From positions 22,952 to 43,909 of the forward strand of contig NZXM01000010.1 of NCBI GenBank assembly GCA_002701965.1: a DNA stretch of 20,958 nt, given 5' to 3'. Below the pieces are notes generated by a model that ran no database searches, had not been told where the DNA came from, and worked only from the letters and a program-made list of their open reading frames with translations. Source of the DNA: Methanobacteriota archaeon. GTDB taxonomy: Archaea > Thermoplasmatota > Poseidoniia > Poseidoniales > Thalassarchaeaceae. A program made the position numbers and the translations under genes. Shown in pieces: positions 12,752 to 20,958 of the stretch (its first letter is position 1; every line of letters begins with the position of its first letter).

Positions 12752-15607
12752 TTATCGCCAAGCAATTCCAGGTTCAAGAGGTAAACTCGAACGAGCTTTT
12801 CCTGCAACATCTTCTCCATCGCCTGCCCGGTAGGCCTCAACAGTACCAATCTCGAGTGCTTGCGAGATGAATCCGGTATTCGCAGTAAGGAACGCAACTT
12901 CGTCAAATCCACTTTGAATCAGATTGTTTTCCTGCTTCCCCCAAGTGTAAATCCGCCCGCGACGTTTCTTTTGGCCGACTACAACCATTTTCCAAAACTG
13001 CATGACCTCTCCTTTCGTTTCTTCATCACGGAAGTAGGGTTGGGTTTGCAAGAATTTGTTCCCACCTTGCTTGAAGTCAAATGATTCTTGATGCATTTGA
13101 ATCGCCCGATTTGCAAGGTCATTCTTCCAATCTTGTGCCGTTTGGATAATCAATGACGAGAGTTCACCGTCAGTGTGGCGTTGAGCAAGTTCACGAACAC
13201 TCCTCGCACGATCGATGACACGTCGCAAGTATTCCTCTTGGGCCAAGGTGATTGAATCATTTTCATCCGTCACCAGATCTATCTCGATGATCGTTTTTGC
13301 AAGCATAGTGGTTTCACCCAAAATCTGCCACATTTCTTCTGCGAGGTGAGGTGTTGCTGGATACAGCATCGGAATCCAAGTTCGAAGGTATGCCTGTGCA
13401 GCTTGACGACTCACGCCTCCACGACGCTGTGCCCATTGCCAATCAGACACCATTTCGAAATGGCTAATCATCACACCTTCCCTTAGACCAATATTGGACA
13501 TTTGATCGTTCCAATCAGCATATGATTTTCGAGCTCGAGCAAGCAACCATTCATCCATCGAACCGACAGCAGCGTCATTCTGAATCCCTTGAACCAACGC
13601 TGTGTGAATGGCCCGCATTTGTCGATAATTTGACTCAATCGCTGAATCAGACCAATCCATTCCAGCCTCGGGATTCGCACCAAAGAGAATGAACAATCGT
13701 ACAGTATCGGCACCAAACTTCTCAATCATCAATTCTGGACTGACAGTATTGCCCAAACTCTTGCTCATCTTGGCTGATCTAAACGTCAATGCATCTCCAC
13801 AAGTAGGACATGGAGTATTCTTCAAGTCGACATGTAACTCTACATTACAGGATGCGCAATATGGTGTTGGCGCGTTGACCATACCCTGACATACCAATCG
13901 AGAGAACGGTTCAGAGACATCATTGAGTCCAGCATCTCTCAATGCCTTTGTGAAGAAACGAGCGTACAACAAATGCATTACTGCGTGCTCAATTCCACCA
14001 ATGTACAGATCCACTCCACCATCCATCCAGTAATCAGCATTGATTTTGTCAAATGGTGCATCACTATTCATCGCATCTGTAAATCGCAAGAAGTACCATG
14101 AAGAATCATAGAAGGTGTCCATGGTATCGGTTTCTCGCTTTGCCGGAATTCCACAAACGGGGCAAGTCGTATTGACAAAACCTGCATGTGATGCCAATGG
14201 ATTTCCAGATTGTCCTTCGGTGAAGACGACATCGAGTGGGAGTTCAACAGGCAAATCTTCGGCAGGAACCGGAACAACACCACAGTCCTCACAATGAATG
14301 AATGGAATCGGCGTCCCCCAGAATCGCTGTCGGCTAAGCAACCAATCCTTGAGACGATATTGGATGGTCCCTTGACCCATTTGTTCCTGCTCAAGTAATT
14401 GTATGACCGCTTGCTTGGCTTCATCACCATATAACCCGTCAAAGCCATCTCTACCTGCGTTAATCATCCACCCCAGTCCCTCGAATGCTCTCCCGGTTAC
14501 CTTCGGTTCCTTGCCCTCCTCTTCAGACAGAACTTGACGGATGGAGATATCGTATTTCTTTGCGAAATCAAAGTCACGCTGGTCATGACCTGGAACTGCC
14601 ATGACAGCACCAGTTCCATAGGATGCAACAACAAAATTTCCAGCATAAATCGGTACTTCTTCTCCAGTCAGTGGATTGGTAGCGTAACGACCGAGGAAAA
14701 CACCCTTTTTGTCTCGTAGCATATTGATACGATCAAACTCAGATATTCGCGCGCATTCATCCGCTAATTCTCGATAGTCCGCTTCAAATTCCGTTCCAGA
14801 AACCAGTGTTTCGCATAGTGGGTGCTCAGGCGCCAGCGTCACAAAGGTCACACCAAAGATGGTGTCTGGTCGAGTGGTAAAGGCACGAATGACATCATCT
14901 TCACCAACGATGGGGAAATCGATATCGACACCATGTGAGCGACCAATCCAATTTCTCTGCATAGCTTTAACATTCTCAGGGAAATCAATATCGTCTAAAG
15001 CGTCGAGTAATTCATCAGCATAGGTTGTCATCTTGAGGAACCACTGTGCCATATCTTTCTGACGAACTTCTTCAGCACATCGCCAGCATCGGTTGTTTTT
15101 GACTTGCTCATTCGCCAATACAGTATCACATGGGTCGCACCAATTGACAGGGGCGGTTCGCCTCTCAACGAGGCCCATTTCGTAGAATTTCAGAAAGATC
15201 CACTGATTCCACTTGTAGTATGTCGAATCACTGGTTGCCAATTCTCGTCGCCAGTCATAGGAGAACCCCATTCTCTGTAAATCATCGCGGATACTTTCGA
15301 TATTCGACCATGTCACATCATGGGGGTGTCCACCGATTTTCTTCGCTGCGTTTTCTGCAGGCATTCCAAATGAGTCATAACCCATCGGATACAGAACATT
15401 GAATCCAGACAAGCGTCTGAACCTAGCCATGCTGTCTCCAATGCTGTAATTTCGAACGTGACCCATATGCATTTTTCCACTGGGGTAGGGGAACATCTCT
15501 AGGCAGTAGAACTTGGGTTTACCTTCATCCACTTCACTCTCAAAGGCGGCCGCCTCATTCCACATCTCTTGCCATTTGGCCTCGATTGCGGCGGGGTTGT
15601 AGTGCAT
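12752..15607 (-). CDS. leuS: Leucyl-tRNA synthetase, bacterial type, with extra zinc ribbon
   Basis: The protein is 951 residues and charges tRNA-Leu with leucine. The sequence is bacterial type: MFPYPSGKMHMGHVRNYSIGD contains the HIGH motif as HMGH (47-50), and GYDSFGMPAENAAKK follows. Next come a first four-cysteine site (C157, C160, C174, C177), the CP1 editing domain (TTRPDTIFGVTF, GTGAVMAVPGHDQRD), and the ZN1 domain (CEDCGVVPVP ... TTCPVCG). DTMDTFYDSSWYFLRF and KMSKS (613-617) complete the catalytic core. Just before KMSKS sits an additional zinc ribbon, C584, C587, C600, C603. The C-terminal end (KARSSLPLEPGIAWR) does not look like the usual bacterial ending. The start is ATG 15607, preceded by AGGGA seven to nine bases away; GTG 15610 is an alternative. 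An archaeal genome would be expected to carry the archaeal type, so horizontal origin is likely. Confidence 0.95.
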   Translation of the reverse strand: MHYNPAAIEAKWQEMWNEAAAFESEVDEGKPKFYCLEMFPYPSGKMHMGHVRNYSIGDSMARFRRLSGFNVLYPMGYDSFGMPAENAAKKIGGHPHDVTWSNIESIRDDLQRMGFSYDWRRELATSDSTYYKWNQWIFLKFYEMGLVERRTAPVNWCDPCDTVLANEQVKNNRCWRCAEEVRQKDMAQWFLKMTTYADELLDALDDIDFPENVKAMQRNWIGRSHGVDIDFPIVGEDDVIRAFTTRPDTIFGVTFVTLAPEHPLCETLVSGTEFEADYRELADECARISEFDRINMLRDKKGVFLGRYATNPLTGEEVPIYAGNFVVASYGTGAVMAVPGHDQRDFDFAKKYDISIRQVLSEEEGKEPKVTGRAFEGLGWMINAGRDGFDGLYGDEAKQAVIQLLEQEQMGQGTIQYRLKDWLLSRQRFWGTPIPFIHCEDCGVVPVPAEDLPVELPLDVVFTEGQSGNPLASHAGFVNTTCPVCGIPAKRETDTMDTFYDSSWYFLRFTDAMNSDAPFDKINADYWMDGGVDLYIGGIEHAVMHLLYARFFTKALRDAGLNDVSEPFSRLVCQGMVNAPTPYCASCNVELHVDLKNTPCPTCGDALTFRSAKMSKSLGNTVSPELMIEKFGADTVRLFILFGANPEAGMDWSDSAIESNYRQMRAIHTALVQGIQNDAAVGSMDEWLLARARKSYADWNDQMSNIGLREGVMISHFEMVSDWQWAQRRGGVSRQAAQAYLRTWIPMLYPATPHLAEEMWQILGETTMLAKTIIEIDLVTDENDSITLAQEEYLRRVIDRARSVRELAQRHTDGELSSLIIQTAQDWKNDLANRAIQMHQESFDFKQGGNKFLQTQPYFRDEETKGEVMQFWKMVVVGQKKRRGRIYTWGKQENNLIQSGFDEVAFLTANTGFISQALEIGTVEAYRAGDGEDVAGKARSSLPLEPGIAWR

Positions 15608-15630
15608 CACAGTGTTCCCTCATGCGTGTA

Positions 15631-15695: not shown

Positions 15696-18290
15696 TCATT
15701 CGGTGGAAATATCGTATTCATTGCTATTGACCAAAAAGATTGCTTCGCGAGTCAATTGGTATCGGTATCGCATACCGACCTTTTCTCGCTCAACTAGACC
15801 AAACTTTTCGAGAGTCCTCAGGTGGTGGCTAATCAGTTGCTGACTGGCTTTCAATCGAATTGCCAGTTCTTTCTGACTCAGGTTGACAATGTCATTCTCA
15901 GTTGCATCTAGCAATCGTAGAATCTTACCCTGAAGACTGTTTGGATCCGGAGTAAGCAATGGAATCGGCAGCTCATCAACACCAAGATTTGATTGGATTG
16001 TTGCTGGATAAAATCGAACCAATCGTCCGTCTTTTCTTCTCCAAATTCTCTCATCACCTTCCAAGTGCTTGAGGTGATGAGTCAACTGTCCATTACTCAT
16101 ACTCAGAGCGCCGAGTAAAGCGCGGAAGTGAACACCGGGATTGGCCGCAAGGTAACCCATGATCCGCCCACGTTGATATTCACCATCGTGCTCGCCATTT
16201 TTTCGAACCATACCAACCAATCCGATGCCGACTTGAAGTGCAGGGATTCTGATCCATTCGGTATTGCCTAAGTATAGCAGGCCAATGATGGACAAGGAGG
16301 TCGTGGCAACAACCGTTACAGTTGCTGGCGCCAGTTCTACAATTTCATCGACAGGAGTACTCTTTGCAATCGTTGGTTCGACAGGGTTGCTAATTTGAGG
16401 TACAGTTTCTGTTTCATCTAATGTTTGCAGGATGACAATTCCTGACCAGGTTGAGCACGCCCCAGTCGATTTGCTGACTTCAACGGAGTAACTACCACTC
16501 AATCCAGGTTGCGGAGACCACCCACCATCTTTCATGTGTGCAACAAAGTTGTGTTCGATACCCTCTGAGTCTGTGAGTAACCAGCAGCCCTGAGTAGAGG
16601 TTGTAACATAATTCCAATCACCACCAATTTGTAGGGGTTCAACATTTTGTTCGTTGATTTGCGCAACCGGTTGCACCTCTTCTTCAGATGGAGTCTCTTC
16701 AACAATTTCTTGCAAGTATACTCCATCATAGGTATGTGCCAATTGGGATCGGAAGGTTGGAAGCGATGTGGTTTCGATAGAAATCTGCCAATTGCCATGT
16801 GCCAATTCCTGACCACCCTCTGCGAATGAAACAATCAGAGTTGGCCAAGTATAACTTTGCGATGATTCGATTGTCGTTCGCTGTCCACCGACTGCCTCAC
16901 AACCTTCGTACCAAACCCTCTCGGGCTCTTCTCCAATCAGGAATAGTTCGAGCTGTAGAGCGCAGTCAGTGGGCCAATAGAAGTCAAATCCTTCATCGCC
17001 ACTGTTTACAATAGTGACTTTGAAAGAAATTCTTTCATTCAACCCATCCGCATCCAGCACGGCTAGATTGTCTATTCTCAATTGGACGGACGCATCATCT
17101 TGATAATCTAGGCCACAAGCAGGATTGAATCCGCTATTTTCATGGATAAAGGACTGCGTAGCAACGATGCCATGGTCTGGCTGACTCACGACCAAAAGGT
17201 GCATTCCATCCCCAATCTCACATCCATTTGAACCGATAAAGTCCCAATGTTCTGAGGCAACAGTATGTGTGGTTAATGGAGCAATTTTTTGTTCAACTCC
17301 AGTATCTGGACAAAATCGATCACCTCGTGAATCGAAGACAATTTCGCCATTCGGTGCGATGACGTGGGCTTCTGCGATACAAGCGTCTTCAAAGACCAAT
17401 TTCGCGGGAACATCTGCTGAATTCTCCAGCGTAAAGTGCCATTCTAGAAGATTATCAGTATCAATGGTTACACTTGGGATTAATTGAGGTACAGAGTTGG
17501 TGGGTGTTCGCATGTATGTTGTTTCTACAGTTGTGGTTGAGCCAATGACACCTGATAGCGAAATTGGGATCAATATGTCACCATCCTCGGCGCCCTCAAA
17601 ACCCCATGCAAACCAACCTAGAGCCAAGCGCTCACCTGATTCAATGGCCCCAAATCCACAAGATAAATCGGTTAACACATTCGTTTGAACCCTACAGTTT
17701 TCATCGAATGGAAGTGTGATCAAATCAGTGCCGATGTTACTCAATGACAGGTAAATCATGGCGGGCATTGATGAAGTGTGACTGTTTTCTTGACCCAATG
17801 TTTCTGCAAGTATAGCATCTAACTTGAGATTCTCAGGCATTTCGACTGTACGTTGGAATATCAGGGATTGTATGTCCTCAAGATTAGCTTCACTCTGTGC
17901 AAATTCAAAGTCTAAGTCTCCACTGGGTGCGTTATTCCAATCCCACGTCCAGGTCGACAAGATTCGCTCTTGACCGGGCTGAATAGACATCGCTCGGCTT
18001 TGATCAGGACAGATTCGTTCATCGTCAAGGTCCATTTGCCATTCATCACTTGAGATAACCAAATCAAATGGACAAGCGGGGTTGTAAACCAATTCCCGTG
18101 CCGTATCGGCATGATTCTTGATTCGAATGGTTACCTCCAAATCTCCAGTATCGGAATAATATATTCCATTACTTGGTTCGTCAATATCGATTCGCAATTC
18201 AAGATTGGATTCGGATGAATCAGCACTGGCCATTGGGGCGAGAATCATAACGAGAAGCAACCCAACCAAAGGAGTCGACCTGAAATTCAC
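15696..18290 (-). CDS. Transmembrane one-component regulator: secreted repeat sensor plus two cytoplasmic winged-helix domains
   Basis: The protein is 864 residues from GTG 18290. A signal peptide is at about 1-23 (VNFRSTPLVGLLLVMILAPM, then ASAD). Four beta-rich repeats fill about 27-530, each with a cysteine pair: C73/C94, C199/C211, C304/C327, C443/C464. Repeats 1 and 3 look like BsuPI-type Ig-like domains (LEVTIRIKN ... CPFDLVI ... IQPGQERI ... W). A fifth, different segment with C569/C612 and a Glu/Pro/Thr-rich linker lead to one membrane helix (about 655-675). The cytoplasmic end has two winged helices: about 703-765 (VHFRALLGALSMSNGQLTHHL) and about 785-852 (ELAIRLKASQQLISHHLRTL). This order puts the sensor outside and DNA binding inside. 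The ligand and regulon are unknown. The start is uncertain: GTG 18302 is possible, and longer in-frame extensions run into the divergent gene. The gene is 124 bases from the MBL-fold gene. Confidence 0.8.
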   Translation of the reverse strand: MNFRSTPLVGLLLVMILAPMASADSSESNLELRIDIDEPSNGIYYSDTGDLEVTIRIKNHADTARELVYNPACPFDLVISSDEWQMDLDDERICPDQSRAMSIQPGQERILSTWTWDWNNAPSGDLDFEFAQSEANLEDIQSLIFQRTVEMPENLKLDAILAETLGQENSHTSSMPAMIYLSLSNIGTDLITLPFDENCRVQTNVLTDLSCGFGAIESGERLALGWFAWGFEGAEDGDILIPISLSGVIGSTTTVETTYMRTPTNSVPQLIPSVTIDTDNLLEWHFTLENSADVPAKLVFEDACIAEAHVIAPNGEIVFDSRGDRFCPDTGVEQKIAPLTTHTVASEHWDFIGSNGCEIGDGMHLLVVSQPDHGIVATQSFIHENSGFNPACGLDYQDDASVQLRIDNLAVLDADGLNERISFKVTIVNSGDEGFDFYWPTDCALQLELFLIGEEPERVWYEGCEAVGGQRTTIESSQSYTWPTLIVSFAEGGQELAHGNWQISIETTSLPTFRSQLAHTYDGVYLQEIVEETPSEEEVQPVAQINEQNVEPLQIGGDWNYVTTSTQGCWLLTDSEGIEHNFVAHMKDGGWSPQPGLSGSYSVEVSKSTGACSTWSGIVILQTLDETETVPQISNPVEPTIAKSTPVDEIVELAPATVTVVATTSLSIIGLLYLGNTEWIRIPALQVGIGLVGMVRKNGEHDGEYQRGRIMGYLAANPGVHFRALLGALSMSNGQLTHHLKHLEGDERIWRRKDGRLVRFYPATIQSNLGVDELPIPLLTPDPNSLQGKILRLLDATENDIVNLSQKELAIRLKASQQLISHHLRTLEKFGLVEREKVGMRYRYQLTREAIFLVNSNEYDISTE

Positions 18291-18345
18291 CTCGCCTAGC
18301 ACCCGCTCCGCCTCAGTTGTGCAGCCTACTCCTCCCGTTTGAAAC

Positions 18346-18373
18346 CATTGGCACCCCCTAAGGGGGGCCAATG
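18346..18373. promoter_or_regulatory. Long imperfect palindrome in the divergent intergenic region
   Basis: CATTGGC pairs with GCCAATG and CCCCC with GGGGG, with one bulged A and a three-base loop (TAA on plus, TTA on minus). Twelve base pairs in a 124-base divergent promoter region suggest either an operator for a dimeric winged-helix protein or an RNA hairpin in the leader of the minus-strand gene. Self-binding by the neighbouring regulator is an inference. Confidence 0.5.
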
Positions 18374-18414: not shown

Positions 18415-19170
18415 ATGGGCCTGCGAGAAGGTGAATTTGACAAATCCACGAGCGACCCTCAAGTCGAGATTTGGGTCACTCAAATGGGTTCATGGGCCAA
18501 CATGAATACTGCCTTCATCGATCGAGAAAATCAAGTTGTTGCCATTGTCGACCCATTCGATGGTGAAGCATGGATTGAGGCCTTGAGTCATGAAAATTTG
18601 GTCCCCTCACATATCCTTCTGACACATACGCATCGAGACCACACACCGGGAGTAAAGGCGATTCGAAATGCATACCCTGAGGTTGAGGTTTGGGGGCATG
18701 AGGAATCAGTATCACCGAGTCTGTTTGGTAGGATCATTTTCCGGAGGACCGATTTTACCCATGTTTGGAATCATGCTCCCAATCAAATAGAGACATGGCA
18801 ATGTGGTTCAATCGAGCTTTCCGTCATTCACTCGCCGGGCCATGCTCCGGGCCATGTCACATTCCATGGGCATGGAGTCTATGTTGCTGGGGATTTACTG
18901 TTCACAATGCGCTCTGGGCGAGTCGATTTACCAGGCTCAGATCCGAACGCGCAGTGGCGGAGTCTTGCCTTTGCGAAATCGATCTTAAAATCGCTGCCTT
19001 GTGATTGGCGTCTAATCCCTGGACACCGCTATGATTGGATCGATGGAAGCACACCTGATTGGGTCACCATCGAACAGGCACTCGCGCACAATTTGTCGCT
19101 AAATGCTCCGAACATTGAGTCGTTCGATGCACTTGCATTCAATCGATTTGATGACGACTTGGCGGCTTAA
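18415..19170 (+). CDS. Metallo-beta-lactamase-fold hydrolase (glyoxalase II/LACTB2-like)
   Basis: The protein is 251 residues and cytoplasmic, with no signal peptide. It carries the metal-binding signature THTHRDH (H71, H73, D75, H76). The third ligand is in HSPGHAPGH (H143), the bridging aspartate in VAGDLLF (D160), and the last histidine in PGHRYDW (H204). This is the complete two-metal set of the glyoxalase II-like branch. The substrate cannot be read from sequence: thioester hydrolase, lactamase or endoribonuclease (LACTB2-like) are all possible. No Shine-Dalgarno sequence precedes ATG 18415. The gene is divergent from the transmembrane regulator, and its TAA overlaps the stop of the convergent repeat protein. 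Confidence 0.87.
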   Translation: MGLREGEFDKSTSDPQVEIWVTQMGSWANMNTAFIDRENQVVAIVDPFDGEAWIEALSHENLVPSHILLTHTHRDHTPGVKAIRNAYPEVEVWGHEESVSPSLFGRIIFRRTDFTHVWNHAPNQIETWQCGSIELSVIHSPGHAPGHVTFHGHGVYVAGDLLFTMRSGRVDLPGSDPNAQWRSLAFAKSILKSLPCDWRLIPGHRYDWIDGSTPDWVTIEQALAHNLSLNAPNIESFDALAFNRFDDDLAA

Positions 19171-20958
19171 CCCAGCAAGTCCCCGAATTCTGGAAGCGCA
19201 TTATTCTCCGCCTCTTGTTGCTCCATGTGAACTTGCCATTCGGCTTTCTCAACATATCCGAGTTCTTTCGCTTTCTCGATTTCACCAGTCGCCAAATAAT
19301 GATCAATCCACTTTTGTCGTCGCTCTTCTTCCTCATTGTTGAACGCCATCTCTTGAGCCTGTAACTGGCGAATTTCCGAAAGTCGCTTCCGGGCTCCCAT
19401 TTGTTTTGCAACCAAGGCAACGAAAATCAGTGCCAACATCAGTGCAATCGCTCCACCCATGATGTACAACATGACAGATGAGCTTTCATCTTCTTCGGCT
19501 TGTGACCCTTCAGATTCGGGTTCGGTTACAACACAACGCTGTCCAATTAGGTGGATATCTGGGTCGTAGGGGCAAGCATCAGCGGTATCGGACCAACCGT
19601 CAGAGTCGCTATCCAAGCAACCAAACTTGTCTTCATAGGAGAATCCTTGGACACTCTTGCAAAGGTCCGGCTGGAAAGCCAAGCCTGTACTATTGTCCCC
19701 ATAGCCGTCACGATCAGCGTCTTTGTTCTGTGTAAATCGGAGTGGGAAGGCGTCAGTATTTCTTGCATTCTCTACCAATTCTCCAGGCCAACACTCGAGT
19801 CTTATTGTTGAATTATCCTTGTAATTGTCACCAAATCCATCGCCATCGACATCGCTCCATTGTGTGGGTTCATCAGGGAAAGCATCGCCATTTTGGACAC
19901 GGCTTTGAATCAAACCAGGGTCTACATCGCAAACCCATCGATAGGTTTCATCGGAAAGGGTTTCTCCGGTGATATTGGTGTACGTATAATTGTCACCGTA
20001 TCCGTCTCCATCTGAGTCAATCCATTGGGTTTCATCTTCAGGGAAAATATCGATTGAGTCGGCCCATCCATCCCCATCAGAATCTGTACATCCGTACACA
20101 TTCCCTTCCGTGGAGGTGCCAGGCCAATCTGGGCAGTCATCTCCGTCCACGGTTAACTGACTGTCACCAAACCCATCGCCATCTGTGTCGGCATCTTGGA
20201 ATGGGTCATCGGGGAATGCATCTTGAGGATCAGGAGTTCCGTCTTGGTCACTGTCAGGACATCCACGTGCTTCGTCGGTATTCGTAGTCCCGTACATCAT
20301 TGGACAGATATCGTAGTTGTTTCCATCTGGGTTGTCGCCAAATCCATCTCCATCACCATCCCACCACTGAGTGGGGTCATCAGGGAACCAATCTCCATTC
20401 TCACCGCTCGGGTTGTCGCCATAGCCGTCCCCATCACGATCTCCACACTGGGCACTATCCATGGGGAACAAGTCAGGATTGTTTCCGTTCGGGTTGTCTC
20501 CACATGAAGACTCAGCATTGTTACGGTCAAACCCATCTCCGTCCGAATCCGACCATTGTGTAGGGTCATTCGGGAAGGCTTCACCGGCGTTGGCATATCC
20601 ATCGCCATCATTGTCTGCACAACCATACCATGTTTTGTCATCGTAAGTCTGTGAGGTTTCATTCCATTCGATGGCCTTCATGCTTGTTCCAGCTTCTCCT
20701 GGGCACTCATCACCCATGTTGCCTGACTTATTGTCTCCGAATTGATCTCCATCTGAATCGTGCCATTGTGTTGGGTCATTGATGAATGCATCCGCGTCTC
20801 CAAGTGGACTTGCGATCCCTTCGCCTTCAGCAGCATTACCTGGATCAGACCAGCCATCTCCATCTGAGTCAGGACAACCGATTCGATCCCATACCGAATT
20901 GCCCCATGCAAGTGGACAACCATCCCAAGCAGAATTTTGGCTGAACGGTTCATCACCA
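19167..20958 (-). CDS. Large calcium-binding surface protein with thrombospondin-3-like repeats (N-terminus outside window)
   Basis: 596 residues are visible and the frame is open to the window edge; an internal ATG at 20717 is not the start. At least 13 Asp-rich motifs of the form DSDGDGxGDN occur (DSDGDGWSD, DRDGDGYGDN, DVDGDGFGDN and others). Several are linked by a conserved spacer such as FPNDPTQW, giving units of about 25-50 residues. Such loops bind calcium in thrombospondin type 3 repeats. Paired cysteines occur between units. After an acidic linker there is one membrane helix (about 19410-19486, YIMGGAIALMLALIFVALVA). A cytoplasmic tail of about 75 charged residues follows, with a coiled-coil-like start and the stretch YLATGEIEKAKELGY. 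The repeats are therefore outside the cell and anchored at the C-terminus. The role may be adhesion, S-layer or extracellular enzyme display; the missing N-terminus would decide. Confidence 0.88.
   Translation of the reverse strand, partial: GDEPFSQNSAWDGCPLAWGNSVWDRIGCPDSDGDGWSDPGNAAEGEGIASPLGDADAFINDPTQWHDSDGDQFGDNKSGNMGDECPGEAGTSMKAIEWNETSQTYDDKTWYGCADNDGDGYANAGEAFPNDPTQWSDSDGDGFDRNNAESSCGDNPNGNNPDLFPMDSAQCGDRDGDGYGDNPSGENGDWFPDDPTQWWDGDGDGFGDNPDGNNYDICPMMYGTTNTDEARGCPDSDQDGTPDPQDAFPDDPFQDADTDGDGFGDSQLTVDGDDCPDWPGTSTEGNVYGCTDSDGDGWADSIDIFPEDETQWIDSDGDGYGDNYTYTNITGETLSDETYRWVCDVDPGLIQSRVQNGDAFPDEPTQWSDVDGDGFGDNYKDNSTIRLECWPGELVENARNTDAFPLRFTQNKDADRDGYGDNSTGLAFQPDLCKSVQGFSYEDKFGCLDSDSDGWSDTADACPYDPDIHLIGQRCVVTEPESEGSQAEEDESSSVMLYIMGGAIALMLALIFVALVAKQMGARKRLSEIRQLQAQEMAFNNEEEERRQKWIDHYLATGEIEKAKELGYVEKAEWQVHMEQQEAENNALPEFGDLLG

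Follow-up and report, generated by a model that had tools for sequence, protein, structure and literature searches.

A predicted transmembrane one-component regulator with repeated BsuPI-like outer domains and two winged helices in Poseidoniales

The regulator gene and its neighbours

The window, a stretch of 20,958 nucleotides of Poseidoniales DNA, carries on its minus strand a gene for a long, multidomain protein. The features of the locus are given below, with residues numbered throughout in the 864-aa frame from GTG 18290.

12752..15610, minus strand: downstream gene, which we take from its sequence to be leuS-like; conserved neighbour
15696..18302, minus strand: whole regulator gene; 868 aa from GTG 18302, 864 aa from GTG 18290
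18219..18290, minus strand: predicted signal peptide, residues 1–24 (hydropathy peak, A-x-A end; short helix 6–17 in the model)
17841..18215, minus strand: D1, BsuPI-like, residues 26–150, limits set by hand, Cys73/94 (PF12690, profile homology, cysteine register, model)
17505..17840, minus strand: D2, residues 151–262, Cys199/211 (profile homology, cysteine register, model)
17100..17504, minus strand: D3, residues 263–397, Cys304/327 and an extra pair, Cys357/392
16701..17099, minus strand: D4, residues 398–530, Cys443/464 (profile homology, cysteine register, model)
16401..16643, minus strand: D5, fifth beta domain, residues 550–630, Cys569/612 (model)
16263..16331, minus strand: predicted membrane helix, residues 654–676 (hydropathy, charge, model)
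16209..16259, minus strand: conserved helix predicted just inside the membrane, residues 678–694 (conservation; low model confidence)
15996..16187, minus strand: WH1, first winged helix, residues 702–765, PF24266 (Pfam, model)
15723..15935, minus strand: WH2, second winged helix of MarR/ArsR type, residues 786–856 (Pfam, model, fold)
18346..18373, no strand: 28-bp palindrome CATTGGCCCCCCTTAGGGGGTGCCAATG, candidate operator between the regulator gene and the divergent gene
18415..19170, plus strand: divergent metallo-beta-lactamase-fold gene (PF00753, 60.1 bits); conserved neighbour
19167..20957, minus strand: TSP3-like repeat surface protein, cut by the window end, with a C-terminal membrane helix by eye; conserved neighbour

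The minus-strand frame is open from 18449 to 15696. GTG 18302 is probably the true start, because the closest homologues with visible starts (P0001–P0003; 868 aa, 80–97% identity) begin at its equivalent, 4 codons before that of GTG 18290. From the N to the C terminus the chain consists of the signal peptide, D1–D4 (26–530), D5, an acidic stalk (631–653), the membrane helix, the juxtamembrane helix, WH1 and WH2. The initial annotation, which had placed a signal peptide, repeats, a membrane helix and two DNA-binding domains in one chain, is confirmed. D5, the inner part common to relatives across the phylum, the conserved neighbours and the palindrome are additions to it. Conservation was assessed in an alignment of 69 sequences, i.e. 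the window and 68 homologues drawn from 120 listed of 549 found.

A second BsuPI match in the same assembly, on contig C82, was considered as a paralogue and rejected. It matches the window from about 16584 upward, ends with its contig inside the gene, is 95% identical over residues 1–569 and has the same upstream neighbours (lactamase-fold and TSP3 side, by eye). This copy of the first two thirds of the gene is strain variation within the assembly. Six listed relatives have one in-frame stop each (TGA in G149, G186, G014, G049 and G047; TAG in G045). Two records titled Deltaproteobacteria AH-558-G13 (L125) and Blastopirellula NAT61 (L134) hold the gene beside a leuS-like gene, the former also with lactamase-fold and TSP3 genes, and look mis-assigned.

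Synteny around the gene spans both families of the order. Of 188 confirmed relatives the best 80 were compared. A leuS-like gene follows downstream in 78 of these loci, and in the other two the contig ends at or just after the regulator gene. A TSP3 protein is encoded upstream in 71 of the 80; eight of the nine loci without it are at or near contig ends, and the ninth, L124, is not. The divergent lactamase-fold gene is present in 61 loci, while of the 19 without it four are at contig ends and 15 have the TSP3 gene directly upstream. All three neighbours occur together in 54/80 loci. In the window, the TSP3-like protein matches PF02412 only below the Pfam cut-off.

Outer domains, topology and winged helices

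PF12690 (BsuPI) matches the protein over two stretches at 38.6 bits, above the Pfam cut-off of 22.9, and the predicted structure of D3 has the BsuPI Ig-like fold. Profile comparison of sub-alignments with hhalign links all six pairings of D1–D4 (E 1.7e-18 to 3.3e-6, as single-pair values that are not database-calibrated), and both cysteines align in 6/6 pairings. By contrast, no comparison of D1–D4 with D5 or with the winged helices reached an E-value better than 0.059. Structure prediction, named beforehand as a test that might refute the four repeats, displays a repeated domain. The kinship with BsuPI, suggested at the outset as a comparison to make, and the recurrent cysteine spacing of 12–23 residues, noted then from the sequence, also held: the distances are 21, 12, 23 and 21 for 73/94, 199/211, 304/327 and 443/464. 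Pairs 357/392 and 569/612 were absent from that first description. Eleven of the twelve cysteines are C in 69/69 aligned sequences and C443 in 68/69, in domains whose mean identity to the window is only 0.34–0.44 (68 homologues). The pairs are putative disulfides.

The two strongest hydrophobic peaks of the chain are the signal peptide (1–24) and the helix near 654–676, in agreement with the proposed signal peptide and single membrane helix. Mean net charge over the 69 sequences is −4.2 (range −8 to −1) at 631–655 and +1.2 (range −1 to 5) at 676–702, and hydrophobicity past the membrane helix is moderate (mean 1.09 vs 2.13 for the helix itself). This charge asymmetry and the moderate hydrophobicity of the next segment favour a topology with the N-terminal part outside, the C terminus inside and one crossing, which is the orientation initially predicted; the second segment may be re-entrant. 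Residues 677–700 have a mean identity of 0.63 (68 homologues), and the stalk between D5 and the membrane is of low confidence in the models.

The first winged helix matches PF24266 (HTH_HVO_0163_N) at 55.6 bits (cut-off 31), and the second matches MarR at 31.7 bits (cut-off 24.6) and has a predicted MarR-like winged-helix fold. Pfam and the model therefore both bear out the claim of two winged helices. They are modelled with low confidence in the full-length model (blocks of about 38–71) and with pLDDT block means of 73–97 in a second model. As pTM is low in both (0.49 and 0.40, respectively), the arrangement of the domains is not given by them. Mean identity of the winged helices to the window (0.80–0.81; 68 homologues) is far above that of the outer domains, and both contain invariant stretches at the expected place of the recognition helix.

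Transmembrane transcription regulators (TTRs) are defined by a DNA-binding domain that shares its chain with one or more membrane helices, and sequence and model predict this combination here. It had further been suggested that the protein contacts DNA from the membrane without a kinase step. The second half of this claim stands in that no phosphotransfer, histidine-kinase or receiver domain was found in the chain (Pfam, E≤1), whereas sensing, DNA binding in vivo and action while anchored we infer from sequence. Regulators of the ToxR/CadC type carry an N-terminal winged helix of the OmpR/PhoB type (Trans_reg_C). The present protein has no Trans_reg_C match (Pfam, E≤1), and its DNA-binding part is C-terminal.

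Distribution and the upstream palindrome

Within the order, a match at E≤1e-10 is found in 198 of the 243 genomes drawn, in 34/35 near-complete ones and in 22/22 genera, although many of the 198 are C-terminal only. The search for the same architecture in other Poseidoniales genomes, suggested in the initial annotation, yielded full-length homologues in both families of the order, with conserved neighbours. In the window's own family, genomes with a best match below E 1e-40 come from genera g1, g6, g8 and g11. The other genera of this family have shorter listed proteins (frames of about 270–390 aa; one reads through masked bases to 1466). Twelve such short-form loci (5.9–10 kb each) contain no leuS-like gene, lactamase-fold gene or C-terminal part of the TSP3 protein; the outer domain is short in ten, and the remaining two have TSP3-like repeats (by eye). 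L195 and L196 are direct fusions of TSP3-like repeats (by eye) with a membrane segment and a winged-helix tandem like that of the regulator.

Outside the order, homologues among the matches listed cover only about residues 572–851. In nine hand-picked ones, PF24266 is followed by a second winged helix in 9/9, BsuPI is found in 0/9 at E≤0.001, and in seven the outer part contains a named Pfam domain that scores above its cut-off (CARDB, NPCBM_assoc, NosD/beta-helix, GLUG, Ig types). A hydrophobic peak lies about 50 residues before PF24266 in 7/9; L238 and L240 have no membrane peak there and an N-terminal peak only. PF24266 is present in 156/194 genomes of the phylum, in frames of up to 2047 aa among the matches listed, and eight genomes have at least 28 matches each, possibly a large set of receptors. 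In the window's assembly, a 254-aa frame (L004, G000:C69) combines PF24266 with an N-terminal hydrophobic segment (by eye); a second PF24266 match of this kind occurs in 13/17 genus genomes.

The palindrome pattern CATTGGCCCCCCTTAGGGGGTGCCAATG (≤3 mismatches) lies upstream of the regulator gene in 17/17 genomes of the genus, its place in G505 being deduced from the distance to the PF24266 match. Among named close relatives it is present in 14/16; the loci of the remaining two include no upstream DNA. In its own genome the pattern occurs here and on the strain-variant contig, with one further site at three mismatches. Other sites at two or three mismatches exist in 13/17 genus genomes, and a reversed-pattern control gave 0–2 sites per genus genome. 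Two GC-rich look-alike palindromes with the core CACCCCYTWRGGGGTG (G141:C66:23421 and G141:C10:15225) have equivalents in part of the genus. One is next to a gene that resembles acyl-CoA carboxylase, the other separates a divergent gene pair (genes named by eye). Since three mismatches must be allowed for either to fit the pattern, we do not put forward a regulon.

The place of the palindrome would fit an operator serving both divergent genes. A conserved order-wide operator was rejected: dyads were scored in 67 upstream regions against 20 simple shuffles each (L018 and L019, with no upstream DNA, and L020 were left out; L012 is mis-indexed, its contig ending early), and other genera have different dyads at different places, or none. 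Outside the genus the winged helices stay conserved but the palindrome does not, so the palindrome may belong to the core promoter or to an RNA instead of being the operator of this regulator. In the genus it lies just upstream of the TATA-like TTTCAAAC (by eye) and thus may not be transcribed with the regulator gene. Rfam gave one match at E 0.14 and 21.3 bits (cut-off 46), and a 111-base stretch around the palindrome folds better than shuffles at z −1.83, 10 of 200 shuffles being as good.

Proposed mode of action and known systems

We propose, with a probability of roughly three in four, that the protein is a single-chain transmembrane transcription regulator in which an outer sensor acts on membrane-proximal winged helices without a kinase. 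The outer part, i.e. the four putatively disulfide-stabilised BsuPI/Ig-like domains and D5, would recognise a protein or surface ligand outside the cell. The stalk, the one helix that crosses the membrane and the conserved helix next to it would relay the ligand state to the winged-helix pair, which would bind DNA at or near the membrane. Within the genus, the regulator would probably act on its own divergent promoter via the 28-bp palindrome. All steps of this scheme, from the recognition of a ligand to autoregulation, are putative. On present evidence the ligand would most likely be a protein, either secreted or on the cell surface, and the TSP3 surface protein encoded next to the regulator is the first candidate.

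Alternatively, the signal might travel by regulated proteolysis: cleavage at the acidic stalk (631–653) would release the outer part, and an intramembrane protease would free soluble winged helices. The low-confidence stalk between D5 and the membrane would suit such a route, inhibition of a subtilisin has been reported for the founding BsuPI protein (PMC3901451), and the TTR TcpP is cut in this way (cited in PMC10269533). We nevertheless consider it unlikely, as the good conservation of the membrane-adjacent helix 678–694 (0.63 for 677–700) fits continued membrane contact. BsuPI-type domains could also serve adhesion or protease binding instead of sensing. In the extreme, the main work of the outer domains would be to inhibit proteases at the surface or to mediate adhesion, and the winged helices would tether DNA to the membrane without regulating it. 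The BsuPI fold and the conserved adjacency to the TSP3 surface-protein gene are compatible with such a role, which we hold to be quite improbable: the winged-helix pair occurs under unrelated outer domains and in BsuPI-less short forms, as expected of receptors, and invariant stretches lie at the expected recognition helix in both winged helices. A joining of two genes by sequencing or assembly error, for which no support was found, is refuted by the same architecture in full-length homologues of both families and can be neglected.

A single-chain regulator would resemble the TTRs surveyed in PMC10269533, which unite a DNA-binding domain and a membrane helix without a kinase; 1,384 archaeal TTRs are counted there, and about 56% of TTRs are single-pass. 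It differs from them by the signal peptide, five outer beta domains and C-terminal tandem winged helix, and the words Poseidon-, Thermoplasmata and BsuPI are absent from the main text of that survey. ArnR and ArnR1 of Sulfolobus acidocaldarius are likewise membrane-bound one-component regulators of an archaeon, described as activators, and two inverted repeats in the flaB promoter have been proposed as their target (PMC6396743). In ArnR, however, the HTH is N-terminal, putative HAMP and sensing parts come next, and two membrane helices stand at the C terminus (PMC6396743). The present protein runs in the opposite order and has a single membrane helix and a large outer sensor, which sets it apart from the ArnR type.

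The outer domains recall IPI/BsuPI of Bacillus subtilis (PDB 3ISY, PF12690), whose fold is an Ig variant (PMC3901451). That source relates that many IPI relatives have signal peptides, that its 30 archaeal homologues are in Halobacteriaceae and that MEROPS dropped the family as inhibitor and competing substrate were indistinguishable; its text uses neither the word helix-turn-helix nor the word fused. IPI is a single intracellular domain, unlike the four secreted-type copies here, each with a conserved cysteine pair and fused to a regulator. The first winged helix is shared with Haloferax HVO_0163 (PF24266). The one paper found on that protein (PMC10294847) only lists it, as ArsR-type, with the proteins that rose in a hypochlorite-stress dataset. 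Thrombospondin genes are widespread according to a Poseidoniales genome paper, which links them to adhesion. A literature search, with subscription journals mostly outside its scope, returned no description of PF24266 or of this domain combination.

The initial interpretation of the protein as a membrane one-component regulator is supported. The kind of regulator is already known, since membrane one-component regulators have been described in archaea (PMC10269533, PMC6396743). Its sensor composition, its order-wide conservation with synteny and the shared chassis look undescribed. It is tempting to speculate, albeit at less than even odds, that the protein belongs to an undescribed class of archaeal receptors which spans the phylum and does the work of bacterial two-component systems. 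A constant chassis (membrane helix, adjacent helix, PF24266 and second winged helix) would carry interchangeable outer domains, namely the BsuPI tetrad in Poseidoniales and CARDB, NPCBM-associated, NosD beta-helix, GLUG or Ig domains elsewhere, with at least 28 PF24266 proteins per genome in some lineages. The Poseidoniales member would read the state of the cell surface via its TSP3 neighbour or secreted peptidases.

Poseidoniales have been described as the most abundant archaea in the plankton of ocean surface waters and are without cultured representatives (PMC6461757), and little is therefore known about how they sense their surroundings. Receiver-domain matches are few in the genus (1–3 in 16/17 genomes and none in one, most genomes being incomplete), which makes this conserved membrane regulator a good candidate for a main route from the surface to DNA. 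If a shared chassis with swappable sensors is indeed used, archaeal signal reception would become testable by domain swaps.
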